Shown here piece by piece: positions 18,021 through 37,928 of a stretch of DNA of 64,000 bases (the stretch's first letter is position 1; every line of letters begins with the position of its first letter). The notes under the pieces were generated by a model that worked only from the letters and a program-made list of their open reading frames with translations, was not told the DNA's origin and ran no database searches. Origin of the DNA: Nitrospirota bacterium (lineage in GTDB: Bacteria; Nitrospirota; Nitrospiria; Nitrospirales; Nitrospiraceae); contig JAUXVD010000004.1 in assembly GCA_030684575.1 (NCBI GenBank), forward strand, positions 62,001 through 126,000, read 5' to 3'. The position numbers were made by a program, and so were the translations under genes.

Positions 18021-18042
18021 TCGCACGGTGCGGTCTGTGTGG
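18021..18042 (+). promoter_or_regulatory. Dyad site 1 (candidate upstream activator site)
   Basis: TCGCAC-GGTGCGGTCT-GTGTGG followed by ATCCGCTC. It is one of four copies in this window with the plan TCGCAC-N10-GTGCGA-(N)TCNCGCTC. The inner part CGCAC-G-GTGCG is itself a palindrome. Its end is 70 bp before the -24 element of the sigma-54 promoter. Confidence 0.6.
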
Positions 18043-18111
18043 ATCCGCTCGAATTCAGAATCGATCCTCCAAGAAACAAGGAATTTCACGCGCTCTTTCA
18101 CCACTCTCAGA

Positions 18112-18127
18112 TGGCATTGTCCTTGCT
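18112..18127 (+). promoter_or_regulatory. Sigma-54 promoter of the porin gene
   Basis: TGGCAT-N5-TTGCT; GG (18113-18114) and GC (18125-18126) have the exact RpoN register. Transcription should start near 18138, 38 bases before the porin ATG. The dyad site lies 70 bp upstream, a usual distance for an enhancer-binding protein. Confidence 0.72.
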
Positions 18128-18175
18128 GGGAGCCTCTTCTCTGACATCAACCACACATCGCCTCAGGAGAAATTG

Positions 18176-19744
18176 ATGGCTATCACGTGTCGAGCTCGAA
18201 TCACGACGGGGCAAGCTATCGCTGGAGCGGTTGCTCTCCTCTTAACGCTCATGTTCTCGCAACAGAGTCTCGCGGGAGGAGATGATCATCGTGCGCTGCG
18301 GCTCCTCCTGGACAAAGGCATCATTACGCAGCAGGAATACGATCAAGCAGTCGAAGAAGAGCAACGTACGAAAACCGACGAAGCACAATATGTGAAGCAG
18401 GCGACGGCAATCACGAAAAACGGGCTGCAAGTCAAATTGGGAGGTTTCGCCGAAATTGATTTTATCGGGGATAGCACGCGGAGCTATGAGGAGATCATCG
18501 GTAATCGGCCGGTCCTGCGAAGCAATACGCTGGGCGGCGCCAACAGCCTGCTTCAAACCAGCCCGAGGAACAGCCGGATCACGCTCGATGTGCGAGCCCC
18601 GGAACGGGACAGCATCAAAAGCCGTTTTTATGGATCCATCGACTTCCTGGGGAACGAACCGGCGATCGGCAGCCCCGGAGTGTCCAATCTCACGTTGCGG
18701 ACCAGCCCGGACGCACGCATCTTTCAAATGTACTTCCTGGTGGAAAGTCCAGCAGTCGATGTGAAGATCGGGCAGGATTGGTCCCGGTTTGGATTCATGT
18801 CTGACTATTCGAGGGGACAAGTGTCGGTGGCTGCCACTCCGGCAAACCTGTTTAATCGTTGGATTCAGGCCAGCATCTCCAAACGACTTCGCGTGACGGA
18901 TACCCTGTCCCTGACGCCCGTCTTCTCCGTGGAGCGGCCTCCACAAACCGATGCCAATCTTCCTTCTTTCGTTGCGGGAGTTCAGGTCGCCTATCACGGC
19001 CTGCTCGCACCCTACACCGGTTCTTCGACAGGCGACATTTCTCTCAAACCGTTGAGCCTCCAAATCAGCGGAGTCGGACGGAGACTTGAAGCGAATACCG
19101 GAGGTCCGACGACTTCATCGGGAAACCAACCCAATCTGGGAGGTCAAACATACGTACCTGGTTGGGGGCTCTCCTCTAGCCTATTTATTCCGGTTCTCCC
19201 ATCACAGAATGGAGAGTTGGGTCATACCGCGCACGTCGTGATGGAGGGTGTCACAGGTGCCGGTATATCCGATATGTTTAATGGATTGAGTTGGGGAGTC
19301 TGCAATCCGGTGTGCGGGAGTTCCACTTCAAACAGCGGCTTTGGCGGAGCGGCCTTCGGTCAGACCAACATCGACGCCGGACTTGCAGCCGTGAGCAATC
19401 AAACCGGAAAATTCGAAGCGATCCGTTCGACCTCGATGATGGTGCATGCGACGTATTATCTCCCCGATCAAGGAAAAACGTGGGTCGGAGGCGGTTATGG
19501 GACCATCTACTCCTCCAACGCCAGCGAAATGACCTGTACGGTGACGGCAGCGTTCTGTGGTGGGGCGCTCCGAACAGCACAGAGTATCTACATCCGCGAC
19601 TCCACCTACTATGCCTATGTGTTCCATGACTTCACTCAGGAAATCCGAGCAGCACTGATGACGAACTGGGTTCGTACCACCTATGCAGATGGAGCCAATG
19701 CCGAGAACCACCGGATACAACTGTCGTTCTTCTGGCGATTCTAG
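18176..19744 (+). CDS. Outer-membrane porin (DcaP/anion-selective type)
   Basis: 522 aa with a signal peptide to about residue 33 (QQSLA). A short helical segment follows (HRALRLLLDKGIITQQEYDQAVEEEQ), a pattern common in front of phosphate- or dicarboxylate-selective porins, then a long series of beta-strands ending in the outer-membrane signature FFWRF. GGFAEIDFIGD, ITLDVRAPE and QMYFLVESPAVDVKIGQDWSRFG resemble the DcaP/PorP-like porins. AGGAGAAATTG precedes ATG 18176; the TTG at 18173 is not needed. With SbtAB downstream and a sigma-54 promoter upstream, I infer that it admits bicarbonate or another small anion. Confidence 0.82.
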   Translation: MAITCRARITTGQAIAGAVALLLTLMFSQQSLAGGDDHRALRLLLDKGIITQQEYDQAVEEEQRTKTDEAQYVKQATAITKNGLQVKLGGFAEIDFIGDSTRSYEEIIGNRPVLRSNTLGGANSLLQTSPRNSRITLDVRAPERDSIKSRFYGSIDFLGNEPAIGSPGVSNLTLRTSPDARIFQMYFLVESPAVDVKIGQDWSRFGFMSDYSRGQVSVAATPANLFNRWIQASISKRLRVTDTLSLTPVFSVERPPQTDANLPSFVAGVQVAYHGLLAPYTGSSTGDISLKPLSLQISGVGRRLEANTGGPTTSSGNQPNLGGQTYVPGWGLSSSLFIPVLPSQNGELGHTAHVVMEGVTGAGISDMFNGLSWGVCNPVCGSSTSNSGFGGAAFGQTNIDAGLAAVSNQTGKFEAIRSTSMMVHATYYLPDQGKTWVGGGYGTIYSSNASEMTCTVTAAFCGGALRTAQSIYIRDSTYYAYVFHDFTQEIRAALMTNWVRTTYADGANAENHRIQLSFFWRF

Positions 19745-20127
19745 CGTGTCCGCGATGCCACTTGCCCAACGCAGCCGTTCTATCAGCAGCATGACCAAGT
19801 CAATGGACAGGCAGTCACCGGCAATGGAAAATCCTGCACTTTTGTCATGCACCCGATCCCCAGGACACCATCTCTCCACGTCAGTATCGTCCGCAACAAT
19901 TTCTCACACCTCAGGATTCGCACAGAGCGCACTGAGCGGATCCGCTCGACTTCAAATTCAGGCTCAAGACAAAACTTGCGATCGATCTGCGAGTTTTCGC
20001 AAAAAGCTGCGCCTGATAACGATTTCAGGCCGACGTGGACTTCATGGGCAACCGCATGCTGGCGGAACAGAACTTGCGATATTTAAAATATCTGCTTGGA
20101 TCAACATGACATCGGAAGGAAGACTGA
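19745..20127. other. 383-bp intergenic region upstream of sbtA
   Basis: No gene supported. It contains dyad site 2 (19918-19939). A weak sigma-54-like element, TGGGCA-N5-ATGCT, occurs at 20045-20060. The run ATTTAAAATAT near 20087 is AT-rich. GGAAGGAAGACTGA before the sbtA ATG is its ribosome-binding site. Confidence 0.5.
19918..19939 (+). promoter_or_regulatory. Dyad site 2, upstream of sbtA
   Basis: TCGCAC-AGAGCGCACT-GAGCGG followed by ATCCGCTCGA. The downstream 12 bases GGATCCGCTCGA are identical to those after site 1. The right arm is the least conserved of the four copies. Confidence 0.5.
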
Positions 20128-21150
20128 ATGGTAGATCACACCTTACTTGACGCCATCGGCCATAACCTGACCGCCCCGATGCCGCTTTTTTTTGCGTTGG
20201 GCATCCTGGCAACATTGCTCCGGTCGGAGCTCAAAGTACCCGATGCCCTCTACATCGGACTGACACTGTATCTGTTAGCCGCCATTGGCTTGCATGGAGG
20301 GGCTGAAATCCGTGAAGTGGGAATCATGGCAATCTGGATGCCGATCGTCGCCTGCTTCTTATTGGGCTCCCTGATCCCTATCGGAGGCTATTTCATCCTC
20401 CGTTACATGGGAAAGTTCAGCATCCATGACTCGGCGGCAATCGCAGGCCATTACGGATCAGTCAGCGCGGTCACCTTTGCCGTCGCGACGCAGTTCTTAT
20501 CCAGCCTCCAAGTCAGACCCGAGGGATATCTGTCCGCGTTTCTGGCGATCCTCGAACCAACCGGGGTGGTCGTCGGAATTTTGCTGGCACGAGTCGCGCT
20601 TCAAATCGAAACGAGAAACCACAGTGAGCCGGATGGGGCAACGAAGGCACGTGCCGGATGGATTCGGCCCGTCCTGCACGAAGCACTGACTGGCACTGGC
20701 TCCATCATCCTGTTGGGTGCGCTTGTTATTGGTTATATCTCCGGACCGGACGGGATTGCGGTGACCAAACCATTTTTCGGAGACCTCTTCAAGGGCGTCC
20801 TCTGTCTGTTCATGTTAGAAATGGGCCTGGTCGCCGGCCGGCGACTGGCCGAGGTGCGAGCGGTCGGTGCATTCCTCATCGCTTTTGCGATTGTCATGCC
20901 GATTATTGATGGAACAATCGGTGTGCTCATAGGGGGCTTTGTCGGGCTGAGCGTCGGCGGCGCCACAATGTTGGGCGTCATGGCGGCGAGCGCATCCTAC
21001 ATCGCCGCACCGGCGGCCATGCGCATCTCGCTCCCGGAAGCGAATCCCTCCTTCTACCTCACGGCATCATTGGGAATTACGTTCCCATTCAATATTGCAA
21101 TGGGCATCCCTCTGTATTTTTGGCTCGCGAAACTAGTATTCGGATCATGA
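20128..21150 (+). CDS. sbtA: Sodium-dependent bicarbonate transporter SbtA
   Basis: 340 aa, about ten membrane segments in two inverted halves, as in the SbtA (DUF897) family of high-affinity Na+/HCO3- symporters of cyanobacteria and other autotrophs. Recognisable parts are LRSELKVPDALYIGLTLYLL, GLHGGAEIRE, IAGHYGSVSAVTFAVA and the second-half GASASYIAAPAAMRI-like segment (MAASASYIAAPAAMRISLPEA). The ATG has GGAAGGA upstream. The PII-like partner SbtB follows after 32 bp, which strongly supports the identification. In an autotroph fixing CO2 by reductive TCA enzymes it would raise cytoplasmic bicarbonate. Confidence 0.93.
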   Translation: MVDHTLLDAIGHNLTAPMPLFFALGILATLLRSELKVPDALYIGLTLYLLAAIGLHGGAEIREVGIMAIWMPIVACFLLGSLIPIGGYFILRYMGKFSIHDSAAIAGHYGSVSAVTFAVATQFLSSLQVRPEGYLSAFLAILEPTGVVVGILLARVALQIETRNHSEPDGATKARAGWIRPVLHEALTGTGSIILLGALVIGYISGPDGIAVTKPFFGDLFKGVLCLFMLEMGLVAGRRLAEVRAVGAFLIAFAIVMPIIDGTIGVLIGGFVGLSVGGATMLGVMAASASYIAAPAAMRISLPEANPSFYLTASLGITFPFNIAMGIPLYFWLAKLVFGS

Positions 21151-21182
21151 CCGACAGGGAACGGACGAGAGGATAGACTCAC

Positions 21183-21500
21183 ATGCACATGGAAAAGGCG
21201 ATACTACTGACCATCATTACCGAACGTGTCATGGAACCCGCGTTAAAAGAATTGGTCAAACGTGCAGGAGCTCCTGGGTATACCATTGAAGATGTCGCCT
21301 CAGGATGGGGAACACATGGTACCCGTACAGGTCAACTCGAGAGCGACCAGACCTTCAAAATGCTTCTGGTCCTGCCCAAGCCCCTGGCACATCTCATTCT
21401 CCAAGAGGTGGAGCGAACCCTTCAACCAGATTATGCTGTCACCGCCTTTCAACATGAGATCGAAGTGCTGAGTCGGGCCCCGGCTTCGCCTGGGACATGA
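21183..21500 (+). CDS. sbtB: PII-like regulator SbtB
   Basis: 105 aa with the ferredoxin-like PII fold: AILLTIITERVMEPALKELVKRAGAPGYTIEDV, the loop GWGTHGTRTGQ, then FKMLLVLPKPLAHLILQEVERTLQPDYAV. SbtB proteins bind adenine nucleotides and gate SbtA at the membrane. The C-terminal redox loop with two Cys found in some cyanobacterial SbtB proteins is missing; the protein ends ...SRAPASPGT. It lies directly downstream of sbtA in one operon. AGAGGATAG is the ribosome-binding site. Confidence 0.9.
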   Translation: MHMEKAILLTIITERVMEPALKELVKRAGAPGYTIEDVASGWGTHGTRTGQLESDQTFKMLLVLPKPLAHLILQEVERTLQPDYAVTAFQHEIEVLSRAPASPGT

Positions 21501-21632
21501 GACGTCGAGAATCAATTGCAACATCATGTGCCCAGTGGGCCCACGGTCGCACGCAAGAGCTGATCAATATCTGAAGTGCTGGACGGGACAAGCCGTGAGT
21601 CGGATTAGACCAACAAGGTGAAGGAGACGAGT

Positions 21633-22388
21633 ATGACCCGTGTCGCACAGAGAATCCTGATAATCATCGTTGCCGGTAGCTTAGGCCTAGTGGGGCCTTA
21701 TGCAGAGGCGGGCGTCACGCCCTATCAAGCGGAAGAAGCGGCGCGCTTGATCGCCACGCTCCTCAGTACAGGACGAGTGATCATCGATCGCAATCAATTA
21801 TTGATCGACGATCCCAACAAAGGCGCAAAGGGATTTACGCCCGAGGTGTTCGAGCGACAAGTCATCAACGAGTTTCGAACCCGCACCGGTGTCGATCTGA
21901 CACATCCGGCTTCGGCTCACTTGCCTCCGGAAACGTCGAACCTCTTACGCGCACTCTTAGATGCGAGCAAGGACGTGGTCGCAGAGGCGCAGCCGGTGAT
22001 CAACCAGCAAGGAGTCGGATATAAGAACTTTATCCCGGCCACCTTCGGCAGTCGGGTAGCCAGCCGGTTTTCGGCCCATTCGGGCATCCAGCTGAAGCAG
22101 ACGACGCTCCGGCCACGCAATCCTAAGAATGCCCCTGACCCATACGAGGAAGCCGTGCTTCGACGATTACTGACGCAGCCGAGTCAATCCGTCACCATTA
22201 GCGATATGGAAACCGGCAATAATACACTGCGCGTACTGACCCCCATCTACTACACGAGAGACTGCCTGACCTGTCATGGTGGGCCGGCTGGAGAGTTGGA
22301 CATTTCCGGGTATCGCAAAGAAGGAGCCGAAGAGGGGGATTTGGCCGGTGCGATTAGTGTCTCGATTCCTCTGGATGCTGTGAAATAA
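21633..22388 (+). CDS. Tll0287-like (DUF3365) secreted haem-binding protein 2
   Basis: 251 aa and clearly paralogous to the protein at 16536: it shares GFTPEVFE, YKNFIPAT-GS, LKQTTL-PRNPKN and the haem c motif, here CLTCH at 211-215. The signal peptide ends about residue 26 (PYAEA). AAGGAG seven bases before ATG 21633 decides the start over an upstream GTG at 21618. It lies between sbtB and a HAF-repeat gene, with 22 bp to the latter. It is probably a periplasmic redox or gas sensor or electron carrier; no kinase domain is attached. Confidence 0.88.
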   Translation: MTRVAQRILIIIVAGSLGLVGPYAEAGVTPYQAEEAARLIATLLSTGRVIIDRNQLLIDDPNKGAKGFTPEVFERQVINEFRTRTGVDLTHPASAHLPPETSNLLRALLDASKDVVAEAQPVINQQGVGYKNFIPATFGSRVASRFSAHSGIQLKQTTLRPRNPKNAPDPYEEAVLRRLLTQPSQSVTISDMETGNNTLRVLTPIYYTRDCLTCHGGPAGELDISGYRKEGAEEGDLAGAISVSIPLDAVK

Positions 22389-22410
22389 AATGTCTCAGGA
22401 GGTGAATCTG

Positions 22411-23418
22411 ATGAAATGGTCGCGCGTATATTGGGCCATCGGACTATGTGCAATGATTGCCTGGTTGAGTGTCGACGCTCTCGCGACGGCAGCGGACAAA
22501 TACACCATCAAGGATGTCGGAGCGATTGCAGTCGGTGGCACGGTCGAAAGCCTGAACAACAACGGTCAATTGGCCGGAGCCATCCCGATCAGCCAGACCA
22601 GGAACACGGGATGGTGGTTCGACGGGAAGAAATTCATCGACCTCGGCACGTGCGGTGGAATCGGCTGTCGCGCCATGGACATCAATGATAAAGGCCAGAT
22701 CGTGGGGAACATTGGACGAGACGCTTTTATCTACAACGACGGCAAGTTCATAGACCTCGCCGCGTTTGTGAGACCACCTGGGATTGCGTTGGCGGTGAAC
22801 GATTTGGCTGAGGCGGTGGGATGGTACACCCTCATTCCAGTGCCCGGATCCGATTTCCCGTCTGAGCGCCATGCGTTTATGTATCGAGGACGGACACTCA
22901 CGGATTTAGGCACCCTGGGGGGCAAAGAAAGTGCGGCGACGGATATCAACCACATCGGTCAGGTTGTCGGCTATGCCAGCGCCTACAGTGACGAGACCCA
23001 TGCCTTCTTGTACCAGCAAGGCAGGATGACGGACCTGGGAACCCTGGGAGGAACGGATAGTCGCGCGAATAACATCAATAACCGTGGCCACGTCGTGGGG
23101 AGCGCGAACATCGCAGGGTCCAATAAAGCACATGCGTTTCTTTACGCGGATGGAAAGATGACGGACTTGGGAACGTTAGAGGGGCAAGAAAGTACCGCGC
23201 TGTCCATCAACGAGGCAGGGCAAATCGTCGGAACAAGTGGCTCGCGCGGATTCCTCTATAGCCAGGGGAAAATGATTGATCTCACCACCCTTCTTCCACA
23301 AGGGTCCGGGTGGAAAACCCTGGCTCCTCGCTGCATCAATGACCGCGGCCAGATCGCCGGGGTCGGAATCGCCGCTGACGGAAAGCCGCACATTTTCCTT
23401 ATAACACCCGCCCCCTAG
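22411..23418 (+). CDS. HAF-repeat secreted protein
   Basis: 335 aa. A signal peptide of ~27 residues is followed by at least five tandem HAF-type repeats of ~45 residues: a histidine/aromatic strand (HAFLY), a short loop, DLGTLGG-S-A, then IN--GQVVG. Such extracellular repeats form propeller-like beta structures of unknown ligand. CAGGAGG eight bases before ATG 22411 fixes the start; an ATG at 22390 is not needed. It follows the DUF3365 gene and is probably co-transcribed with it. Its part in carbon uptake is not evident from sequence. Confidence 0.82.
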   Translation: MKWSRVYWAIGLCAMIAWLSVDALATAADKYTIKDVGAIAVGGTVESLNNNGQLAGAIPISQTRNTGWWFDGKKFIDLGTCGGIGCRAMDINDKGQIVGNIGRDAFIYNDGKFIDLAAFVRPPGIALAVNDLAEAVGWYTLIPVPGSDFPSERHAFMYRGRTLTDLGTLGGKESAATDINHIGQVVGYASAYSDETHAFLYQQGRMTDLGTLGGTDSRANNINNRGHVVGSANIAGSNKAHAFLYADGKMTDLGTLEGQESTALSINEAGQIVGTSGSRGFLYSQGKMIDLTTLLPQGSGWKTLAPRCINDRGQIAGVGIAADGKPHIFLITPAP

Positions 23419-23709
23419 ATCTCTTGGAATTGCCCCGTATATCGATTGGGGGCACGGGTGGAGAAACTTCCGACTATCTGCCCTAGGGAGACCCTGGCCC
23501 AATGTGGCCTCGCCTCGGTACTGAAAAAACTTGAACGACATAAAGAAGCCCTCTTCAACAGAAAAATATTATGTTATCCTGCAGTGCATACGATCTCACA
23601 GTGAGGGAGGGTATGGCCCACTGCCGACTCTGGATCGAGCCACTCTCATACTCGACCCCATACACAAATGACTTATGCCGAGCCCCTGATTGAGAACAAG
23701 GAGGATCTA

Positions 23710-24633: not shown

Positions 24634-24816
24634 AGAGGAAATGGCCCGTGCACAACAGACCCAGCACCCTTTAGCCTGTATGGCATCACCGATGATGCGC
24701 AGCGCATTGTGCCTGCATTGATTCGTCAGCGCCCATAACCGGATCAGGCATGATTCTTGTGCACGATTGATGGACGTAACGAAAGACTATTCAGACGGCG
24801 ATCTTGCCGCTCAATC

Positions 24817-24845
24817 GGTGCACGTCCTCTATGAGGACGTGCACC
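24817..24845 (+). terminator. Stem-loop terminator before the Ehr operon
   Basis: GGTGCACGTCCTC, loop TAT, exact complement GAGGACGTGCACC, then TCTCTTCCT. The 13-bp stem with pyrimidine-rich tail is a likely intrinsic terminator for the cupredoxin gene. It separates it from the operon that starts 50 bp downstream, although it stands 183 bp after that gene's stop. Confidence 0.7.
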
Positions 24846-24895
24846 TCTCTTCCTGAGCTCACGCGCCCAGACAACTACGACATGAACCACCATAC

Positions 24896-26947
24896 ATGAT
24901 GCTGGCTAGCACCGACGGCATGCACATGCTTCTCAGGCTCCTCCTCGCGAGCTACGCAGCCGGCCTCCTGCTTCCGTTCTGTACCCCGCGAAAGCCGCAG
25001 ACGCAAGGGATGGTGGGCAGCGTCTGTGCCTCTGTCGCAAGTCTCATCGGTATTGCATTGGGACTCAGCGGACTCGTCGCGTCCGAACCGTTGACCGCCA
25101 CCGTCGCATCGCCCATTCCCCTGCTCGCCTTCGCGATTCGGCTCGATCCGCTCGCCTCCTTTTTCGTCCTGACCATCTCCCTCGCCGGGCTGGCCGCCTC
25201 CATCTATGCCATGGGATATCTCAAGGAGTTCCATGACCGGGTCTCCGTCGCCGCGTTGGCATCCTTGACGAACGGGTTCCTGCTCTCCATGACACTCGTC
25301 GTCATTGCCGATAATGGATTCTTCTTCCTCATTGCGTGGGAGCTGATGTCGCTCGCCTCCTACTTTCTGGTCGTCACAGAGCATGAGAAGGCGGATGTCC
25401 GCTCCGCCGGATTCTTCTACCTGGTCATGACACACATCGGCACGGCCTTTGTGGTCCTGACCTATTTAATCTTGTTTCAATCCGCAGGATCGTTCTCGTT
25501 TGATGCCTTTCGTCATCCGGGACAGGCCTTACCGGAAGGGATGCGAACCCTGGTTTTTCTCGCCGCCTTGATCGGCTTCGGCACAAAAGCCGGGATCGTG
25601 CCCTTGCATGTCTGGTTGCCCTACGCCCATCCGGCCGCGCCATCGCATATCTCGGCCCTCATGTCCGGCGTCATGATCAAGACGGCCATCTATGCACTCA
25701 TCCGGGTCTACTTCGATTTCCTTGGGGGACAATTCCCCTGGTGGTGGGGCTTCGTCGTGCTGCTCGTCGGGATCCTCTCGGCCATACTGGGTGTGATGTA
25801 TGCGCTCATGGAACATGACCTCAAGCGTCTCCTGGCGTTTCATAGCGTGGAAAACATCGGCATCATCTTGCTCGGCATCGGCGCCGGCATGATCTTTCAG
25901 ACCTACGGGCTCAAGGAGTTTGCTGCGCTGGGCCTGTTGGCAGGGCTCTACCACACGATCAACCATGCCATCTTCAAGGCCTTACTCTTCCTGGGAGCAG
26001 GTTCGCTCCTCTACGCCACGCATACGCGGAACATGGAAGAGTATGGGGGGCTGCTACGTCGCATGCCCTGGACCGGTCTGTTCTTTCTCATCGGCGCCGT
26101 GTCGATCTCGGCTCTCCCCCCGACCAATGGATTCGTGAGCGAATGGCTGGTGTTCCAAACACTCTTTCTGAGCTTTCAACTCCCGGCTCTATTCCTCAAG
26201 TTGATGCTGCCAATCGCCGCAGCCCTGCTGGCCTTGACCGGCGTCTTAGCGCTGGCCTGCTTTGCCAAGGTCTTCGGTATTTCCTTCTTGGCTCTCCCAC
26301 GAAGTGCCCATGCACGCCATGCCGAAGAGGTCCCGGTCGCCATGCGGATCGGGATGGGCATCCTGGCCCTGCTGTGCGTCGGACTTGGACTCGCCCCCAT
26401 GTTCGTCGTGCCGCTCCTCGACCGGATTACCGCCCCTCTGACCGGCGTGTCGATCACCGACAAGGTCCTCGCACTGGATGGCTGGGCCGTGGCGCCAGGA
26501 AACGTCCAGTTCTCCAGCATCTCACCTCCCATGTTGGCGGCCATGCTGATCCTGGGCGGACTCCTTGGCCTCCTCTTGGCCTTCCTCTTCGGTGGCCGTC
26601 TGATGACACGCGCATACAAAACCTGGGGCTGCGGGATCAATCTGTCCCCACGGATGGAGTACACGGCTACGGGATTTGTCCAACCGATTAAGCGAGTGTT
26701 CAGCACCTTCTATCAGCCGACGATCAAACTTGAGACCGAGTTCCTGGAAGAGTCCCGCTACTTCGCCAAACGACGACACTTTGAGTTTCATATCGAGCCG
26801 GTCTTTGAAAAGTATCTCTACGATCCGGTGGTCCATGTCTTCATGCGAATCGCCGACCGCCTGCGTATTCTTCAGGCCGGCAGCCTGCATCTGTACTTGA
26901 CCTATATATTCGTGACACTCGTCATTTTGCTGTTGTTCGCGGTCTAG
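24896..26947 (+). CDS. Ehr complex proton-pumping subunit, HyfB/NuoL-like
   Basis: 683 aa, about 16 membrane segments. It belongs to the antiporter-like NuoL/MrpA/HyfB subunits: IAWELMSLASYFLVVTEHE, FGTKAGIVPLHVWLPYAHPAAPSHISALMSGVMIK, the Lys-containing helix and HSVENIGIILLGIG. NGFVSEWL near residue 410 is also conserved. The C-terminal extension from residue ~590 (YKTWGCGINLSPRMEYTATGF) is typical of HyfB. It is first of six genes laid out like a formate-hydrogenlyase/Ehr membrane complex. No strong Shine-Dalgarno is visible; ATG 24896 or 24899 is possible. Confidence 0.9.
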   Translation: MMLASTDGMHMLLRLLLASYAAGLLLPFCTPRKPQTQGMVGSVCASVASLIGIALGLSGLVASEPLTATVASPIPLLAFAIRLDPLASFFVLTISLAGLAASIYAMGYLKEFHDRVSVAALASLTNGFLLSMTLVVIADNGFFFLIAWELMSLASYFLVVTEHEKADVRSAGFFYLVMTHIGTAFVVLTYLILFQSAGSFSFDAFRHPGQALPEGMRTLVFLAALIGFGTKAGIVPLHVWLPYAHPAAPSHISALMSGVMIKTAIYALIRVYFDFLGGQFPWWWGFVVLLVGILSAILGVMYALMEHDLKRLLAFHSVENIGIILLGIGAGMIFQTYGLKEFAALGLLAGLYHTINHAIFKALLFLGAGSLLYATHTRNMEEYGGLLRRMPWTGLFFLIGAVSISALPPTNGFVSEWLVFQTLFLSFQLPALFLKLMLPIAAALLALTGVLALACFAKVFGISFLALPRSAHARHAEEVPVAMRIGMGILALLCVGLGLAPMFVVPLLDRITAPLTGVSITDKVLALDGWAVAPGNVQFSSISPPMLAAMLILGGLLGLLLAFLFGGRLMTRAYKTWGCGINLSPRMEYTATGFVQPIKRVFSTFYQPTIKLETEFLEESRYFAKRRHFEFHIEPVFEKYLYDPVVHVFMRIADRLRILQAGSLHLYLTYIFVTLVILLLFAV

Positions 26948-26961
26948 GAGACGCGAGTAGG

Positions 26962-27921
26962 ATGCCCCCAATCATTCAATCCCTGCTGCTCGTCACGGCA
27001 CAGGTCATCGTCCTGCTCGCGGTCTCGCCCTTCCTCGTAGGCCTGATTCGTAAGGTCAAGGCGCGCTTTCAATGCCGCCGGGGCGCCAGCATCTTCCAGC
27101 CCTATGCCGACCTCGCCAAACTCTTCCGCAAGCAGCCGGTGATTTCGACGACGACCTCCTGGATCTTCCCTGCGACGCCGTACATTCTGTTCGCCTCCAC
27201 GCTCTCGGCGGGTCTGCTGGTTCCCACGTTCATCTCACAGACACCGTTAAACTTTTCGGGGAACATCATCGCACTCGTGTATCTCCTGGCACTGGGAACA
27301 TTTTTTCTGATCCTCGCAGGACTCGATGCCGGATCCGCGTTCGGCGGGATGGGCAGCAGCCGGGAAGCGATCGTTGCGTCGCTGACAGAACCGGCCATGA
27401 TCCTCTCAATTTTTGCCATCGCACTGACCGCCGGCTCCACCAATCTCAGCACCATTGTCCACAAGACCGCGTTGCTGGAAGGAATCGTGACAGACCCGTC
27501 CCCGCATCTAATGGCGCTGGCAGCTCTGTTCATCGTGGCGCTCGCCGAGACCGGGCGGGTGCCGGTCGATAATCCTGCCACGCATCTGGAACTGACTATG
27601 ATCCATGAGGCGATGGTCCTGGAATACTCCGGCCGCTATCTCGCCTTAATCGAATGGTCCGCCGGCCTGAAGTTGGCTGTGTTTCTCTCGCTGATTGCCA
27701 ACGTCTTCGCGCCCTGGGGCATTGCGACTACGTTGGCGCCGACCGCATTGGCGATCGGGCTCCTGGTCTACGTGGTGAAGATTGCAGGGCTCGCCGTGCT
27801 GATCGGGGTCATCGAATGTATGTTCTCGAAATTGCGGTTATTTCGCGTAACGGATCTCCTGGGCGTCGCCTTTATCCTGGCGCTCCTCGGGCTGTTATTC
27901 TTTTACATTCTTCGGAGCTGA
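26962..27921 (+). CDS. Ehr complex subunit, HyfC/NuoH-like
   Basis: 319 aa with about eight membrane segments. It has the NuoH/HyfC core: RKVKARFQCRRGASIFQPYADLAKLFRKQ (a quinone-site type loop), ALAETGRVPVDNPATHLELTMIHEAMVLEYSGR with the conserved acidic residues, and ECMFSKLRLFRV near the C-terminus. In this family it joins the antiporter-like subunits to the hydrophilic arm. It starts 14 bp after the HyfB-like gene; GAGACGCGAGTAGG precedes the ATG. Confidence 0.92.
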   Translation: MPPIIQSLLLVTAQVIVLLAVSPFLVGLIRKVKARFQCRRGASIFQPYADLAKLFRKQPVISTTTSWIFPATPYILFASTLSAGLLVPTFISQTPLNFSGNIIALVYLLALGTFFLILAGLDAGSAFGGMGSSREAIVASLTEPAMILSIFAIALTAGSTNLSTIVHKTALLEGIVTDPSPHLMALAALFIVALAETGRVPVDNPATHLELTMIHEAMVLEYSGRYLALIEWSAGLKLAVFLSLIANVFAPWGIATTLAPTALAIGLLVYVVKIAGLAVLIGVIECMFSKLRLFRVTDLLGVAFILALLGLLFFYILRS

Positions 27922-27925
27922 GCCG

Positions 27926-28591
27926 ATGCAGATTTCTCCACATATTGGGTCACAGCTCGTCGACTTGTGTTCGGCCTTACTCTTGCTCACCTGTTTTGCG
28001 ATCGTGGCACAGCGGCGGCTCTCCGCCTGCGTCGACCTCTTCGCACTGCAGTCGGCCTTTCTCGTCCTGACGGCAGCGCTGGTGGCCTTCCTGACCGGAA
28101 ACCACCATATCTACATCGCAGCGGCGCTGACCGGCGTGATCAAAGTGGTCATCATCCCGAGGGTGCTCAAGAAAGTCATCGAGCGTCTGAACGTCAAGCG
28201 AGAACTGGTGATGAACGTCAACGTACCGGCCGGCCTGCTGATCTGCGGCGCACTGGTGATGCTGGCCTTCTTTATCACGCAGCCCATCATTCCGCTGGGT
28301 TTTCTGCTCACGCGCGATTCTCTGGCCATCGCGCTGGCCATCGTGCTCATCGGATTTTTCACGATGATTGCCAGGCAAAAGGCCGTCACGCAGCTGGTGG
28401 GGTTTCTGGTCATGGAGAACGGCTTATTTTTAGGAGCCACCGCCGCCACCTACGGGATGCCCTTAATCGTGGAACTGGGCGTGTTCTTTGACGTGCTCAT
28501 CGCGGCGTTGATTGCGGGAATCTATACCAATCGATTGCAAGACACGTTCGACACGGTGGATACCAGCCACCTCACCGTCCTGAAGGAATAA
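27926..28591 (+). CDS. Ehr complex subunit, HyfE-like
   Basis: 221 aa with about six membrane segments, the HyfE family, related at the end to NuoK. Seen are LQSAFLVLTAALVAF, HHIYIAAALTGVIKVVIIPRVLKKVIERL and a C-terminal GFLVMENGLFLGATAATYGMPLIVELGVFFDVLIAALIAGI with the conserved membrane Glu. It begins 4 bp after the HyfC-like gene. HyfE occurs in hydrogenase-4-like and Ehr complexes but not in complex I itself, which supports the Ehr assignment. Confidence 0.9.
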   Translation: MQISPHIGSQLVDLCSALLLLTCFAIVAQRRLSACVDLFALQSAFLVLTAALVAFLTGNHHIYIAAALTGVIKVVIIPRVLKKVIERLNVKRELVMNVNVPAGLLICGALVMLAFFITQPIIPLGFLLTRDSLAIALAIVLIGFFTMIARQKAVTQLVGFLVMENGLFLGATAATYGMPLIVELGVFFDVLIAALIAGIYTNRLQDTFDTVDTSHLTVLKE

Positions 28592-28605
28592 GTGAAGGGT
28601 TTATT

Positions 28606-30144
28606 GTGATAATCGAAGTCCTTGTGTTGTTGATCGCCCCGCTGCTCGCGGGGGGGCTGAGTTTGGTTGTTCATCGGTCTTCGCTCCTCCACGCGATCAA
28701 CCTCACGAGTATGAGTCTGCTCGTGGGGGCGGAAATCATGATCACCAGGACCGTATTGAAGGATGGTCCGTTCACGGCGCTGGGGCAGTTGGTCTATCTC
28801 GACGCCTTATCGGCCTTCATTCTCTTCATCATCGGGGCGGTCGGACTCGCCTGTTCGTTCTACATGCGTTCCTACATGGACGACCAGGTGGCGCGAGGGG
28901 TGATCGCCCCCACAAGGCTCAACCTCTTTTTTTTCCTCTTTCACATGTTTCTGTTGGCGATGGTCATTGCGACCGTCGCGAACAGTGTTGGAGTGCAATG
29001 GGTCGCCATCGAGGCGACGACGCTCGCCACAACCTTCCTGATTGCCTTCTGGAGACGGCGAGAGTCCTTGGAAGCCGGATGGAAATATCTGATCTTGTGT
29101 TCGGTGGGGATTTCCCTCGCACTCTTCGGCGTGGTGCTCACCTATTATTCCTCGCTGCATGTGCTGGGGGACGTCAGCGAGGCGTTGAACGTGACGCAGT
29201 TGCTGCCTGTGGCCGACCAGTTGAACCCGCATGTGTTGAAGTTGGCCTTCATTTTTATCCTCGTGGGCTATGGCACCAAGGTGGGACTTGTGCCCATGCA
29301 TAGCTGGCTGCCGGAGGCCTATACCGAGGCGCCGGCTCCGGTGGCAGCGATGCTGGCTGGTGTGCTCGAAATTGTCGCGGTCTATGCCATCCTCCGCATA
29401 AAGATGATTGTCGACCACGCCGTCTCGCCTGCCTTTACAGGAGGGTTGCTGGCCTTGCTCGGGTTTGCCTCATTTGTGACGGCAGCATTTTTCATCCTCA
29501 TTCAGCACAACTATAAGCGGCTGTTCGCCTACTCCAGCATCGAACATATGGGGATCGCCATGATCGGCTTCGGAGTCGGAGGTCCGCTGGGAGCCTTCGG
29601 CGGACTATTTCATTTGCTGAATCACGCGTTCGCCAAGTCGATGGCATTTTTTGCCGCAGGCAACATTCACCGTCGCTTTCACACGGTAGAGATCGGTCAG
29701 GTGCAGGGGCTGGCCATTGCGCAGCCCTGGACAGCCATGGCCTTGATGATCGCGGGGCTGGCCTTATCGGCCCTTCCTCCCTTCGCCTCATTTGTCAGCG
29801 AAGTGCAAATCGTCACAGCCCTGGCAGCGCAAGGGGTTCCAGGACAATGGTTGAGCAACAGCGGCGGCATGGTAACCGTGACCTTCTCGAACCAATTCAC
29901 CAGCCTGGGCCTCACTGGACTGTTCCTGCTCTGCTCCATACTTGCATTCAGTGGCTTGCTCTATCGCATTACCGGCATGGTCTGGGGCACCCCGCCGGAG
30001 GGAATCGTCCGGGGAGAAGCCTGGACCTTGGGCCATCTGCCGATCATCGTGCTCGCTGCGGCGTTGGTGGGATTTGGGTTCTTCCTCCCTCAGCCCATCC
30101 GGCAACTATTGGAAGAGGCGACGCGAATAATCCTGGTTCACTAG
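28606..30144 (+). CDS. Ehr complex proton-pumping subunit, HyfF/NuoN-like
   Basis: 512 aa from a GTG start (AAGTGAAGGG upstream). It is a second antiporter-like subunit with about 14 membrane segments: VGVQWVAIEATTLATTFLIAFWRRRESLEAGWKYLILC, YGTKVGLVPMHSWLPEAYTEAPAPVAAMLAGVLEIVAVYAILR, and the Lys helix YKRLFAYSSIEHMGIAMIGFGVGG. Two such subunits suggest two ion-translocating modules. The spacing of 15 bp from the HyfE-like gene and 5 bp to the next shows one transcript. Confidence 0.92.
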   Translation: MIIEVLVLLIAPLLAGGLSLVVHRSSLLHAINLTSMSLLVGAEIMITRTVLKDGPFTALGQLVYLDALSAFILFIIGAVGLACSFYMRSYMDDQVARGVIAPTRLNLFFFLFHMFLLAMVIATVANSVGVQWVAIEATTLATTFLIAFWRRRESLEAGWKYLILCSVGISLALFGVVLTYYSSLHVLGDVSEALNVTQLLPVADQLNPHVLKLAFIFILVGYGTKVGLVPMHSWLPEAYTEAPAPVAAMLAGVLEIVAVYAILRIKMIVDHAVSPAFTGGLLALLGFASFVTAAFFILIQHNYKRLFAYSSIEHMGIAMIGFGVGGPLGAFGGLFHLLNHAFAKSMAFFAAGNIHRRFHTVEIGQVQGLAIAQPWTAMALMIAGLALSALPPFASFVSEVQIVTALAAQGVPGQWLSNSGGMVTVTFSNQFTSLGLTGLFLLCSILAFSGLLYRITGMVWGTPPEGIVRGEAWTLGHLPIIVLAAALVGFGFFLPQPIRQLLEEATRIILVH

Positions 30145-30148
30145 AGGA

Positions 30149-31750
30149 ATGACTGCCATGGCAGAATCGAGGTCCTGCGACGAAGTACTCAAAGCCGCGT
30201 TCCCGTCCATCGTACAAAAAGACGAGGTTCGGACAGAATACTCTCACTTTCTTGTCTCCAAGGATCTCCTCCCGGCGATCACCCGTTACCTCCATACCCA
30301 ACCGAGCTTACATGGCAGGCTCACGCTCTTATGGGCGGTCGACGATCGCCCCGTACGTAACACCTATGGGTTGCACTACCTGTTCACCCTGGAGCCCTCC
30401 CGCCGCTGGGTGCTGCTATCTACTGAACTTACGGGAAACGATCAGGTATTCCCCTCCATCACGCCGCACATTCATGCCGCACAATGGTACGAGCGAGAGA
30501 TTCGCGACATGTTCGGATTGATTCCACAGGGGCATCCGGACTTGCGACGTTTGGTTCGGCACGAACATTGGCCCACAGGCACCCACCCGCTCAAAAAGGA
30601 CTTCCCCTGGGACCAGGTATTGGGTCGGCAGCAAGGCGAACATCATTTCCGCCGCATTGAGGGGGAAGGGGTGTTTGAAGTACCGGTGGGGCCGATCCAT
30701 GCCGGAATCATCGAGCCGGGCCATTTTCGATTCTCTGTGGCAGGTGAGCCCATCATGCAACTTGAACTGCACCATTTCTGGACACATCGTGGAGTCGAGA
30801 AGCTGTTCGAGCAACAAACATTGGCCGCAGCAGTTCCCTTAGCCGAACGGGTCTCCGGCGATACAACCATCGGCCATAGCCTCGCCTATTGCCAGGCGGT
30901 CGAATCGTTGCTGCAGCTGGAAGTGCCACGCCGTGGACGATATCTCCGGAGCCTATTTCTCGAACTGGAGCGACTCCATAACCATCTCGGCGACGTGGGC
31001 GCCATCTGTAACGATACGGCCTATGCCCTGCCCCATGCCCATTGCAGCCGGATGAAAGAGCAGATCATGCAGCTCAACGACCGGCTGACCGGCTCACGAT
31101 TTCTCCGTGGAGTCATCCAGGTGGGTGGAGTCGCCATCGATCTCACGGCGACACAATTGGCCGAGATGGTCGCTGAAATGGACCGCATCGAACAGGACTT
31201 CTCGGAACTGGAATCGATCATCGCCCACAACGCCTCCCTGATAGACCGTCTGGAGACCACCGGTGTCCTGACCGAACCCACGGCCTGGGATCATGCGGTG
31301 GTGGGAGTCGTCGGACGGGCGTCGGGCCTCGATCAAGACCTCCGGCGCGATCGGCCCTTTGCCGCCTACGACGAACTTCCCGTCAAGGTGGTGAACTATT
31401 GCTATGGCGATGTGCGGGCGCGGATGCGTGTTCGCATGGATGAGATCCATGAGTCCATGCGGCTGGTCAGAGAGATTCGGCTGAAGATTCCGCAGGGGCC
31501 GATCGCTACCGAACCCAGTCGCGTGGCACAAACCGGTGAATGGGCCTTGTCAGCCGTCGAAGGTTGGCGCGGTGAAATTCTGTATATGGTGATGGCCGGA
31601 GAGAACGGAACCATTCATCGCTGCAAAGTCCGTGACCCCTCGTTCGCGAACTGGCCCGCAATCCAACAGGCCGTGCTCGGGAATATCATTCCGGACTTCC
31701 CGCTTATCAACAAGAGCTTTAGTCTGTCCTATGCAGGGAATGATTTGTGA
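30149..31750 (+). CDS. Ehr complex large subunit, HyfG/NuoCD-like, NiFe site lost
   Basis: 533 aa: a NuoC-like part to residue ~150 (WYEREIRDMFGLIPQGHPDLRRLVRHEHWP) fused to a NuoD/hydrogenase-large-subunit part. In true [NiFe] hydrogenases this part has RxCGxC and a C-terminal CxxC. Here the first motif reads ERVSGDT, with S236 and T239 in the Cys positions, and the C-terminus reads KSFSLSYAGNDL without Cys. All four metal ligands are gone, so it cannot be a hydrogenase. This is the hallmark of energy-converting hydrogenase-related (Ehr) complexes. The start is ATG 30149, or ATG 30158 which has better spacing to GAGG. Confidence 0.93.
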   Translation: MTAMAESRSCDEVLKAAFPSIVQKDEVRTEYSHFLVSKDLLPAITRYLHTQPSLHGRLTLLWAVDDRPVRNTYGLHYLFTLEPSRRWVLLSTELTGNDQVFPSITPHIHAAQWYEREIRDMFGLIPQGHPDLRRLVRHEHWPTGTHPLKKDFPWDQVLGRQQGEHHFRRIEGEGVFEVPVGPIHAGIIEPGHFRFSVAGEPIMQLELHHFWTHRGVEKLFEQQTLAAAVPLAERVSGDTTIGHSLAYCQAVESLLQLEVPRRGRYLRSLFLELERLHNHLGDVGAICNDTAYALPHAHCSRMKEQIMQLNDRLTGSRFLRGVIQVGGVAIDLTATQLAEMVAEMDRIEQDFSELESIIAHNASLIDRLETTGVLTEPTAWDHAVVGVVGRASGLDQDLRRDRPFAAYDELPVKVVNYCYGDVRARMRVRMDEIHESMRLVREIRLKIPQGPIATEPSRVAQTGEWALSAVEGWRGEILYMVMAGENGTIHRCKVRDPSFANWPAIQQAVLGNIIPDFPLINKSFSLSYAGNDL

Positions 31751-31766
31751 GGAGCATGCCATCAGC

Positions 31767-31836
31767 GATCAGCCTTCAGCTTTCAGTAAGAGTTCCGAAG
31801 CTGAGAGCTGACCGCTGAAAGCTGAAAGCTAAGATC
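31767..31836. repeat. Imperfect inverted repeat between the HyfG- and HyfI-like genes
   Basis: GATCAGCCTTCAGCTTTCAG (31767-31786) pairs with CTGAAAGCTGAAAGCTAAGATC (31815-31836), giving a stem of ~18 bp with a 2-base bulge. CAGCTTTCAGC-type repeats recur at ~58257-58272. The hairpin lies in the only long gap of the operon, just before the HyfI ribosome-binding site GGAGG. It may tune expression of the last gene. Confidence 0.6.
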
Positions 31837-31845
31837 GGAGGAAGT

Positions 31846-32367
31846 ATGTTTCGAATTTTGAAGAAAAGTCTGAAAACCGGAGTCGTAACAGGCCAACATC
31901 CAGCAGCCGCGCCACAGGGAGACATCTCGACATCTGAAGCAAAAGACAAAGCCAGGCCGTTCCGTTCCTCGCTGGCATTTCGCGCTGTGGATACCGGCTC
32001 GTGCAATGCCTGCGAGATGGAAATGAATGCGCTGGCGAACCCGGTCTATGACATCGAACGATTCGGCATACACATCGCAGCCTCACCACGCCATGCCGAC
32101 GCCTTGGTCGTAACGGGACCGGTCACCGTCAACATGGAACGAGCCTTGAAGGACGTGTATGAACAGACGCCGGATCCAAAGATTGTCATTGCCCTCGGCG
32201 ACTGTGCGATTAACTGTGGCGTCTTCAAAGGAAGCTATGCCGTGACTGGTCCTGTCGAGAAGCATATCCCTGTCGATCTCCGCATTCCCGGCTGTCCCCC
32301 ACGGCCAGCTGAAATCCTCAAGGCGCTCCAAGAATTACGGACAGACACAGGCTCACACACAGACTGA
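31846..32367 (+). CDS. Ehr complex small subunit, HyfI/NuoB-like
   Basis: 173 aa, the [4Fe4S] (N2-type) subunit of the complex. Cluster ligands are visible: C53 and C56 (GSCNACEMEM), C120 (GDC, with C124 next) and C150 (PGCPPRP). It lies 95 bp after the HyfG-like gene, separated by a hairpin. GGAGGAAGT precedes the ATG. No 2x[4Fe4S] NuoI/HyfH-like gene and no NADH- or F420-binding gene accompany the six, so how electrons enter is unknown. The quinone-side cluster is kept although the NiFe site is lost, so the complex may be redox-active or purely structural. Confidence 0.92.
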   Translation: MFRILKKSLKTGVVTGQHPAAAPQGDISTSEAKDKARPFRSSLAFRAVDTGSCNACEMEMNALANPVYDIERFGIHIAASPRHADALVVTGPVTVNMERALKDVYEQTPDPKIVIALGDCAINCGVFKGSYAVTGPVEKHIPVDLRIPGCPPRPAEILKALQELRTDTGSHTD

Positions 32368-32419
32368 ACCAGCCTAACCTGACTCTTTCTTTTTCTCGCC
32401 CCACCCCACGCCGAGTCCA

Positions 32420-32460
32420 TGAACCATTTCATATCTGCTATTAGCAGATATGAAATGGTC
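32420..32460. repeat. Perfect hairpin, left arm repeated at 34313
   Basis: ACCATTTCATATCTGCT, loop ATT, then the exact 17-base complement. The left side TGAACCATTTCATATCTGC (32420-32438) recurs identically at 34313-34331, 15 bases before dyad site 4. The hairpin stands ~55 bp after the Ehr operon and could end its transcription, although no T-run follows. Confidence 0.65.
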
Positions 32461-32699
32461 GCTCCTTTCACCCACCCAACTCCAGCGCGCCAACACACAA
32501 CTGTATCCATGCGGCGTTCTCGCTTTGCTCAGAGGCTCCCCATATGGAATAGAGTGCGCATCACCGCCTCTCTTGCTGCTGCCTTACCAGGCTGCCTCTT
32601 TGAGCATTCAGCGGTGGTGTTTTATTTTGCCTCAGACCTACAAGCCATCGAAGTTCTGCTGTGCCGATAATGGTTTCCCCCCGCCCCCCAGGGGCGACT

Positions 32700-32721
32700 T
32701 CGCACCGTGCGCCTGGTGCGA
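32700..32721 (+). promoter_or_regulatory. Dyad site 3 (candidate upstream activator site)
   Basis: TCGCAC-CGTGCGCCTG-GTGCGA followed by CATCGCTC. The arms are perfect inverted repeats (TCGCACC / GGTGCGA counted one base further in). Its end is 71 bp from the -24 element at 32792, the same distance as at site 1. Confidence 0.65.
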
Positions 32722-32791
32722 CATCGCTCTTTTCGCGAACACGTCTGCAACAAGGCGCATGATTTTGCACGAATATCACATACGCTCTGCA

Positions 32792-32807
32792 TGGCATTTG
32801 TATTGCT
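32792..32807 (+). promoter_or_regulatory. Sigma-54 promoter downstream of dyad site 3
   Basis: TGGCAT-N5-TTGCT, with the same bases in -24 and -12 as at 18112 and the same spacing. Transcription should start near 32818. The first confident gene downstream is the secreted protein at 33154. Confidence 0.68.
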
Positions 32808-33153
32808 CTGTACAGTCGATGGGAATGGAAAAATCGAAGGAGCCCCCCTGTTCAGCAATGAAGAGATAATTTCCGTGATTCCGGATATCGAACGGACACC
32901 TGAACACTATGTCACAGCCAATAGTCTGGACAGACACTAGGAAGCCATTTGTCGTCGGCGAGTAAAAACATGAGCAACCAATTGATGCTTCTCCTGCTCA
33001 ACCGGAGGCATGAAGACCTTCCGTTGACGAAACAGGACGAGGTGCGATGGGCGGTTATTCAGCTAACAGCAACCTCGACGAGTCACTCAATTCGTGCATG
33101 ACCAGAAGAAGAGCATGAACATGTGTACCCAACAGCAGTACAGAAAGGAAATC

Positions 33154-33942
33154 ATGATGAAACGAAATAATGTATGGCGACTTGCGGTCCTATCAGCGGG
33201 GTGGCTCTCAGTCGCCTCCATCTCCGGTGCAGCATCTGAGTTGACGCAGGCTCACCCCCAACTTCTTTCCGGAGACCGAGTGCTTCTTGGCACGGTAGAG
33301 GACATCAGGAGCGACCAGGCAAAAATCAATATGGGTGAGGGACAACCTCGGTATCTCCCCATGAACGTGCGAAAAGATAAGGGATTGCCGGAACTCAAAA
33401 AAGGAGACCTGGTTGAGATCACCGTGAATGATCAAAATCTACTGGTAGATGTGCACATTGCCGGCGAGACCAGCCACCATCGTGTGGTTCGAGGGCAGCT
33501 CGCTGAACCGATGCCAACCGGACACGATAAGGCAGTGATTCATACGCCGGATGGAAAAGAAGAGGCCCACCTCATACGACCGGTCGCAAAAAGCAAAGTG
33601 GCTTCCATTCCCGTCGGGGCGGATGCCATCTTTCTCATCGACGAGTTGGATAAGATCGCGGACGTAACAATGGAGAGCGTGGAATCAGTGCATCGAGCAG
33701 CCGAACTCGGACAAAAGAAATCACCTCTCAAGGGCAACCTCGGTCAGGTCTCGGGTGTGATCCTGAAGCCCCTAAAGGGCAATACCATTGTCATTCGCAC
33801 CGCGGACGGCAAAGAGCACTCATACGAGGTGCGCCCGCTCGTTCAGCCGAGGTTGGCGACGCTGTCCAACGGCGATGCTGCCGTGCTCTTGGTGGACGAA
33901 GAGAACAAAGTGACGGACATCGCCTTTCAGCCAAAGAAGTAA
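33154..33942 (+). CDS. Secreted protein with three tandem beta domains
   Basis: 262 aa from ATG 33154 (AAAGGAAATC upstream). The signal peptide ends about residue 26 (ISGAAS). The rest is three copies of a ~60-70-residue beta unit: G-V---IRSDQAKINMG...LPELKKGDLVEITVNDQNLLVDVHI; GQLAEPMP...VASIPVGADAIFLIDELDKIADVTM; GQVSGVILK...ATLSNGDAAVLLVDEENKVTDIAF. Each ends in a charged loop and two strands. I know no family with this build; it could be a small periplasmic beta-barrel repeat protein. It lies in the sigma-54-controlled region. Confidence 0.82.
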   Translation: MMKRNNVWRLAVLSAGWLSVASISGAASELTQAHPQLLSGDRVLLGTVEDIRSDQAKINMGEGQPRYLPMNVRKDKGLPELKKGDLVEITVNDQNLLVDVHIAGETSHHRVVRGQLAEPMPTGHDKAVIHTPDGKEEAHLIRPVAKSKVASIPVGADAIFLIDELDKIADVTMESVESVHRAAELGQKKSPLKGNLGQVSGVILKPLKGNTIVIRTADGKEHSYEVRPLVQPRLATLSNGDAAVLLVDEENKVTDIAFQPKK

Positions 33943-34312
33943 GGAGTCTGAGAAGATGGAGCACCGTGTGAGCCTCCAAAGCATACTGATCGGAGGATTA
34001 CAGGTCGTTCGTAGATGGCACCCCAGCTCGATTCGCCTTTAACGGCTCGAAAGAGGGCACGCACATGACGAACGAGGGAAAATGTCGGGGCATCCGTCGA
34101 TGGATTGCCCCAGAAAAGCGGATCACGGCGCATGTTCTTGATGCCCAGGACCTGAGCGCCACCGGAACGAAAATCACCGGCCAATTTGACGCGAGTGAGG
34201 CTCGGCAGTCGTTCCGCCAAAGTAGCCCTCCTCCCACGCCAGCCGTCACGAACAGCTGGAGACAGCTGACGGACGTTCCCGCCAGACTAGAAACGACCGC
34301 ACGACATAATCC

Positions 34313-34331
34313 TGAACCATTTCATATCTGC
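34313..34331 (+). repeat. 19-base repeat, second copy
   Basis: TGAACCATTTCATATCTGC is identical to 32420-32438. Here it is not followed by its inverted partner, but dyad site 4 starts 15 bases downstream. Confidence 0.7.
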
Positions 34332-34345
34332 CAGCAGGAGCGATA

Positions 34346-34367
34346 TCGCACCGTGCGCGCCGTGCGA
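34346..34367 (+). promoter_or_regulatory. Dyad site 4, far upstream of the SulP gene
   Basis: TCGCAC-CGTGCGCGCC-GTGCGA followed by TCCCGCTC. The outer arms are ATCGCAC / GTGCGAT, perfect inverted repeats. Confidence 0.6.
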
Positions 34368-34418
34368 TCCCGCTCATCCAAAGCCTGAACCGCGATGCAA
34401 GCCTCCCCTCGCAGCTCA

Positions 34419-34796: not shown

Positions 34797-34893
34797 CTAG
34801 AATGCCCCTCGACCCAACGTGTCCCCCTAAACAGTTTGAGGCGACGGCCGTTGCACGGGATCACTGGGAACCGGAATGCTCAGGAGAAATTCT

Positions 34894-36675: not shown

Positions 36676-36778
36676 GAAAAGAAGAATTACGCAAGGGTCA
36701 CGTCTGGAAGCCTTGCTATCATTGGGCATGCACATTCTCCAAGATCGCCGAGTCCGAACGGCCAAGAAGGATGCAACA

Positions 36779-37885: not shown

Positions 37886-37928
37886 ACGCATAGAGTCAAT
37901 CGACTCGGGCCAACAAAGGAGAATCTCC

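Follow-up and report, generated by a model that had tools for sequence, protein, structure and literature searches.

Activators of the NtrC family, or bacterial enhancer-binding proteins, join a receiver domain (REC), an AAA+ domain with a GAFTGA loop and a helix-turn-helix (HTH) domain, are encoded beside a kinase gene, and act on a -24/-12 promoter from inverted half-sites located some 100 bp upstream of it. NtrC itself has sites of the form GCAC-N7-GTGC. Here, we analyze a 64,000-nt stretch of DNA (the window; positions 62,001 to 126,000 of contig JAUXVD010000004.1, assembly GCA_030684575.1) from a Nitrospirota bacterium of the family Nitrospiraceae. The window carries four copies of the element TCGCAC-N-GTGCG-N4-GTGCGA-N3-CGCTC together with the gene of an NtrC-type response regulator, RR2, which shares the domain layout, the GAFTGA loop and the adjacent kinase gene of this family. 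The element resembles the inverted half-sites of these systems but differs from the NtrC site by its GCAC-N10-GTGC spacing and by its additional half-sites.

Similar designs have been described in other bacteria. Nla28 of Myxococcus xanthus likewise uses half-sites (8 bp long) of variable number and spacing upstream of sigma-54 promoters; in contrast to the present case, its half-site is CT[C/G]CG[C/G]AG, its physiology is different, and its binding was shown experimentally, whereas here binding is predicted from sequence (PMC9765219). The sigma-54 regulons of Desulfovibrio vulgaris were likewise defined by the comparative-genomic pairing of activators with sigma-54 target operons, but the main text of that study contains neither GTGCG/CGCAC nor bicarbonate (PMC4641369). 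In Nitrospira, sigma-54-dependent regulators beside nxrAB have been noticed previously; that article concerns nitrite oxidoreductase, no binding motif is named in the passages retrieved, and its main text does not mention bicarbonate (PMC6606698). Our literature search retrieved no report of bicarbonate uptake being under sigma-54 control, nor of a regulator and motif paired for this function in Nitrospira, although other papers might exist. To our knowledge, little work has addressed how carbon uptake is regulated in Nitrospira, a widespread group of nitrite oxidisers and comammox organisms.

The four enhancer-type sites are intergenic and are located as follows:

18021..18050, + strand: site 1, upstream of the porin-like gene; TCGCACGGTGCGGTCTGTGTGGATCCGCTC
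19918..19947, + strand: site 2, upstream of sbtA; TCGCACAGAGCGCACTGAGCGGATCCGCTC
32692..32729, no strand assigned: site 3 with its left arm (core 32700-32729 on the + strand); TCGCACCGTGCGCCTGGTGCGACATCGCTC
34338..34375, no strand assigned: site 4 (core 34346-34375 on the + strand); TCGCACCGTGCGCGCCGTGCGATCCCGCTC

A first-pass annotation of this DNA had described four copies of a dyad starting at 18021, 19918, 32700 and 34346, and we recovered all of them on the + strand with the structure that it reported: the TCGCAC-N10-GTGCGA dyad is perfect at sites 3 and 4, and at sites 1 and 2 the right arm departs from it. Two further components had been overlooked. Because a left CGCTC arm is present, site 4 is symmetric throughout (GAGCG-N3-TCGCAC-N10-GTGCGA-N3-CGCTC). 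Moreover, an inner half-site makes CGCAC-N-GTGCG a dyad in its own right and, since GTGCG recurs at 9 bp, turns the right half into a 9-bp direct repeat. Relative to the consensus TCGCACNGTGCGNNNNGTGCGNNNNCGCTC, sites 1 to 4 present 1, 2, 0 and 0 mismatches, respectively. Scanning the window with this consensus at up to three mismatches returned the four sites and nothing else, with sites 3 and 4 matching in reverse as well, and no match was found in 100 dinucleotide shuffles of the window. We then considered the 3.79-Mb genome, for which our statements are based on pattern searches and retrieved stretches. A pattern fitted to the four sites matched, with zero or one mismatch, these sites alone (site 4 in both directions); every other match had three mismatches. 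The motif was therefore not found scattered at random or inside genes, nor does it belong to a widespread repeat family of this genome, the outcomes that the first-pass annotation had named as evidence against its proposal. A separate sequence, GAACCATTTCATATCTGC, forms an inverted repeat near site 3 (32421-32461) and occurs as a single copy just upstream of site 4 (34314-34331).

All four sites are followed, 91-157 bp downstream, by a sigma-54 -24/-12 promoter-like sequence that had previously been missed. Distances are counted from the start of each site, scores come from weights that are our own approximation of the published consensus, and shuffles are segment shuffles reaching the same score:

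18112..18127, + strand: promoter-like TGGCATTGTCCTTGCT, 91 bp from site 1; score 0.94, equalled in 1 of 5000 shuffles
20063..20078, + strand: promoter-like CGGAACAGAACTTGCG, 145 bp from site 2; score 0.83, 67 of 5000 shuffles
32792..32807, + strand: promoter-like TGGCATTTGTATTGCT, 92 bp from site 3; score 0.94, 0 of 5000 shuffles
34503..34518, + strand: promoter-like CGGCATCAGTTGTGCA, 157 bp from site 4; score 0.84, 40 of 5000 shuffles

The promoters of sites 1 and 3 are outstanding on sequence. As for upstream activating sequences, each element (at 91, 145, 92 and 157 bp) has its -24/-12 promoter at the usual distance downstream, and the genome encodes sigma-54 (rpoN; PF04552, E 1.4e-55). The window also contains a perfect sigma-54 consensus, TGGCACGACCATTGCT, at 9846-9861, about 110 bp upstream of an open reading frame (ORF) at 9957 (fn3-like); it is not accompanied by the element and is presumably the target of another activator.

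Each of the four site-promoter pairs is found again at the orthologous position of sister genomes. The porin pair is kept at 91-92 bp in eight of them (G042, G065, G120, G009, G071, G091, G118 and G094), and G068 presents the orthologous site with a weaker promoter. For sbtA, the pair is kept at 145-146 bp in G042, G065 and G120, and CGGAACAGAACTTGCG is identical in four genomes including that of the window. The pair of the secreted protein is found at 92-93 bp in G065, G068 and G071, and the gene itself stays beside the site in sister genomes. Finally, the SulP pair is kept at 150-155 bp in G065, G042, G120, G009 and G068, where the site is also readable in both directions.

Across the family, the element was identified at up to two mismatches in 77 of 147 genomes, relative to none for a reversed-pattern control. 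The copies were intergenic in all but 3 of about 75 examined, the surrounding genes being called with a simple codon-usage score. A -24/-12 sequence scoring at least 0.85 was located 60-160 bp downstream of 70 of the 129 distinct sites and upstream on the same strand of none; the same criterion yielded 13/129 at the mirror position (some elements are symmetric) and 1/129 after shuffling. Site-promoter distances in relatives cluster at 81 and 91-95 bp, approximately one helical turn apart, and 28 of 32 mismatch-free sites presented a promoter scoring at least 0.83. Four copies with zero or one mismatch (L110, L115, L127 and L129) are distant from RR2 and have no -24/-12 sequence that could be recognised within 230 bp.

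The candidate activator is encoded as follows:

41241..42629, + strand: RR2, NtrC-type response regulator (REC, sigma-54 AAA+, Fis-type HTH), proposed to bind the four sites

The Pfam domains Response_reg, Sigma54_activat and HTH_8 were each detected above cut-off in RR2, and its Walker A/B motifs (GETGTGKE, FLDEIGD) and GAFTGA loop are intact. Its best relatives of solved structure are NtrC-family regulators. RR2 scores below the NCBIfam equivalog cut-offs for NtrC (395.5 of 558.6 bits), AtoC (426.6 of 714 bits), ZraR (339.3 of 760 bits) and others, and it is therefore none of these named regulators. The orthologues of RR2 form a distinct score class (at least 63% identity, full length), with almost no variation in the recognition helix TRFALDRRLKK. 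We compared their distribution to that of the element, here counted as present at up to three mismatches, with both tables transcribed by hand. Among 145 genomes, 71 had both, 57 neither, 4 RR2 only and 13 the element only (Fisher 1.7e-22, genomes being treated as independent). The association also holds within genera g1 (p 3e-5) and g6 (p 3e-8), in which both are patchy. All but one of the four RR2-only genomes (G076, G090 and G093) carry a degraded site with three mismatches on the RR2 contig, and in the element-only genome G120 a contig that carries RR1 ends within the kinase gene, just short of the place expected for RR2. Nine genomes have RR2 and sites together on a single chromosome-sized contig; of their 36 listed sites, 17 were located within 40 kb of RR2, relative to 0.67 expected. 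The gene at 41241 had been put forward in the first-pass annotation as the regulator whose binding should be tested, and both co-occurrence and clustering support it as the candidate. The accompanying proposal, that the dyad is the binding site of one regulator of the block, is strengthened by the sigma-54 promoters and by conservation in sister genomes, but the element is not confined to the block, other Nitrospira having it at different genes. Since the element is almost confined to genomes with RR2, RR2 very probably activates these genes.

Another family of the order (f3) encodes proteins 60-63% identical to RR2 with the same recognition helix. Near these genes we found TTTCGCWCA-N9-GTGCG, i.e., TCGCWC-N10-GTGCG; a near-perfect -24/-12 sequence and a 51-residue ORF come after it. 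In several f3 genomes TCGCWC-N10-GTGCG sits within GTGCGATTTCGCTC, the building block that also makes up the right half of the Nitrospira element. The relaxed f3 pattern was present with zero or one mismatch in 7 of the 11 f3 genomes with RR2 and in one f2 genome, six of these matches being on the RR2 contig. This arrangement was fitted post hoc to the f3 sequences, and because it was derived after viewing them the result is supportive rather than a blind test. SulP-family genes lie beside the f3 element or downstream of its promoter at three of the five f3 loci examined. The 51-residue ORF (MSEFSILYKSLHCEQK...) follows the rearranged element and its sigma-54 promoter at L259, L260, L263, L264, L266 and L269.

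We estimate a probability of roughly 85% that the four elements are RR2-dependent sigma-54 enhancers. Several observations weigh against this interpretation. RR2 was not detected in 13 genomes with the element at up to three mismatches; several of these are incomplete or have weak matches, but two of them, G026 and G127, are at least 96% complete and present the element at up to two mismatches. The Fisher tests take related genomes as independent. Judged by sequence alone, sites 2 and 4 have weak promoters, though these are conserved, and some good sites in relatives (e.g., G061:1642107 and G001:325331) lack a recognisable -24/-12 sequence within 230 bp. The strict 30-bp pattern did not carry over to other families of the order; it was not found in f3 genomes with RR2-like proteins, where only the rearranged version occurs. 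Lastly, the efflux, FNT, ModA-like, CBS and small membrane-protein targets of other lineages imply that inorganic carbon is not a universal theme.

It is conceivable that these sigma-54 enhancers are bound by another of the approximately 15 NtrC-type activators and that RR2 is a co-inherited neighbour: the genome contains 16 matches to RR2 at E<=1e-80, and a few complete genomes carry the element with no RR2 detected. However, 17 genomes lacking RR2 are listed with the closest full-length paralogue (G000:C21, 50% identical), and only one of them has the element at up to two mismatches; RR1 has no DNA-binding domain. The clustering of sites near RR2 and its conserved recognition helix also favour RR2, and we consider another activator unlikely. 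Binding by a conventional repressor or activator that acts on sigma-70 promoters, e.g., of the LysR or TetR type, with incidental -24/-12 sequences, appears very improbable. TCGCAC-N10-GTGCGA is indeed a common shape for the sites of dimeric repressors and some copies have no sigma-54 promoter, but strong -24/-12 sequences at two preferred distances, downstream and never upstream of the sites and conserved across species, are difficult to reconcile with such a regulator. The inverted-repeat character of the element, and the unrelated repeat near sites 3 and 4, could also evoke chance similarity, a dispersed repeat family or transcription terminators. The absence of matches in the shuffles, the mere four copies in the genome, the position of the sites ahead of genes with fixed promoter spacing and the orthologous conservation for four target genes leave this a negligible probability; the terminator and mobile-repeat readings are refuted by these same observations.

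If RR2 is indeed the activator, the CHASE3-PAS kinase encoded next to it would phosphorylate RR2. Dimers of RR2 would use their Fis-type HTH to contact the half-sites and then assemble an AAA+ ring. This ring would loop to RNA polymerase-sigma54 at the -24/-12 sequence, 60-130 bp further down, and open the promoter, i.e., act by activation rather than repression. The genes that would be switched on, and those adjoining them, are:

18173..19744, + strand: target 1, porin-like outer-membrane protein of 523 aa, start probably ATG at 18177
20128..21150, + strand: target 2, SbtA-family bicarbonate transporter (Pfam Sbt_1, E 7e-115)
21183..21500, + strand: PII-like protein in the SbtB position (Pfam P-II, E 5.5e-12)
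33094..33942, + strand: target 3, secreted protein, real start probably ATG at 33154 or 33157
34876..36675, + strand: target 4, SulP-family anion (candidate bicarbonate) transporter (Pfam Sulfate_transp)
36638..37885, + strand: CsoSCA-like (carboxysomal carbonic anhydrase-like) protein adjoining SulP, weak matches below cut-offs
37866..39146, + strand: RR1, REC-AAA+ paralogue of RR2 with no HTH, GSVPGS replacing GAFTGA
39306..41237, + strand: CHASE3-PAS sensor histidine kinase (profile search), presumed partner of the regulators

The profile search returned just a weak SHOCT match for the product of 18173, and we retain its earlier reading as a porin as plausible. From its spacing, the PII-like gene is probably on the same transcript as sbtA. 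The secreted protein had no family match in Pfam or NCBIfam. The product of 34876 belongs to the SulP superfamily, with an NCBIfam sulP match below cut-off, and reached 129.3 of the 880 bits required for NCBIfam BicA. Similarly, the product of 36638 scored below the CsoSCA cut-offs (PF20686, 19.9 of 21.5 bits; TIGR02701, 28.8 of 241 bits, E 5.6e-7), which suggests a resemblance to CsoSCA only. The block ends with SulP, the CsoSCA-like gene, RR1, the kinase and RR2, in this order, such that the regulator genes would also be switched on if read through from the SulP promoter. Positions 24896-32367, between the sbtA cluster and SulP, encode a Hyf/NDH-like membrane complex, with a match above cut-off to the HyfB profile; a working NiFe hydrogenase was ruled out for this region because the large-subunit gene at 30149 lacks the CxxC nickel ligands. 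The simplest sense of the targets would be a programme for inorganic-carbon (bicarbonate) acquisition. A role at low carbon is suggested by the neighbouring SbtA, PII-like, SulP and CsoSCA-like genes, and the signal may be carbon or alkalinity.

RR1 is 61% identical to RR2 across REC-AAA+ and ends ahead of the HTH. Its relatives (loci L165, L166, L167, L182, L183, L194, L197 and L106) all lack the HTH and present GSFPGA, GSVPGA, GAFAGA, GAFEGA or EAFAGA as the loop, while keeping Walker A/B-like sequences and the receiver LLDLKM (Asp region). A T-to-P change in GAFTGA has been discussed as inactivating another activator (PMC4641369), and most GAFTGA mutants lose activation (PMC7175178). Given the degraded loop and these mutant effects, RR1 is likely a non-activating partner or modulator subunit, which might enter mixed AAA+ rings with RR2 without contributing DNA binding or sigma-54 contact. 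This proposed arrangement is comparable to that of FleQ/FleT in Cereibacter sphaeroides, where FleT, which lacks DNA binding, hetero-oligomerises with its DNA-binding partner (PMC11999139). Like FleT, RR1 has no HTH; unlike FleT, which also lacks a regulatory domain, RR1 retains REC and the ATP-binding motifs and has lost GAFTGA.

In other Nitrospira, where target families were read by eye, the element precedes a conserved single-span membrane protein of about 35 residues (MVRMIKKVGDRELAWVMLAVAAVALWSTWGL-type) at a spacing of 81 bp. This exact spacing, with a sigma-54 promoter ahead of the small gene, is found in many Nitrospira (L091, L092, L094, L107, L122, L125 and others). The small protein was not found in the window by pattern or in its genome, although so short a query may be missed. 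Further targets include RND efflux genes, an FNT-type channel with MFS/EmrA/TolC-like genes, ModA-like and CBS-domain proteins, SulP and the kinase itself. This diversity suggests that the regulon has been rewired, and we dropped the view that it consists of carbon-uptake genes everywhere; bicarbonate acquisition would be the theme of the lineage of the window. We tentatively raise the possibility of a Nitrospira-wide sigma-54 regulon with a new multi-half-site enhancer that controls bicarbonate here and is tuned by RR1 as a phosphorylatable poison or modulator subunit. Motif, promoter class, named regulator and target list across many genomes together make the circuit directly testable, even without Nitrospira genetics, and the element provides a handle on the conserved 35-residue membrane protein in many relatives.

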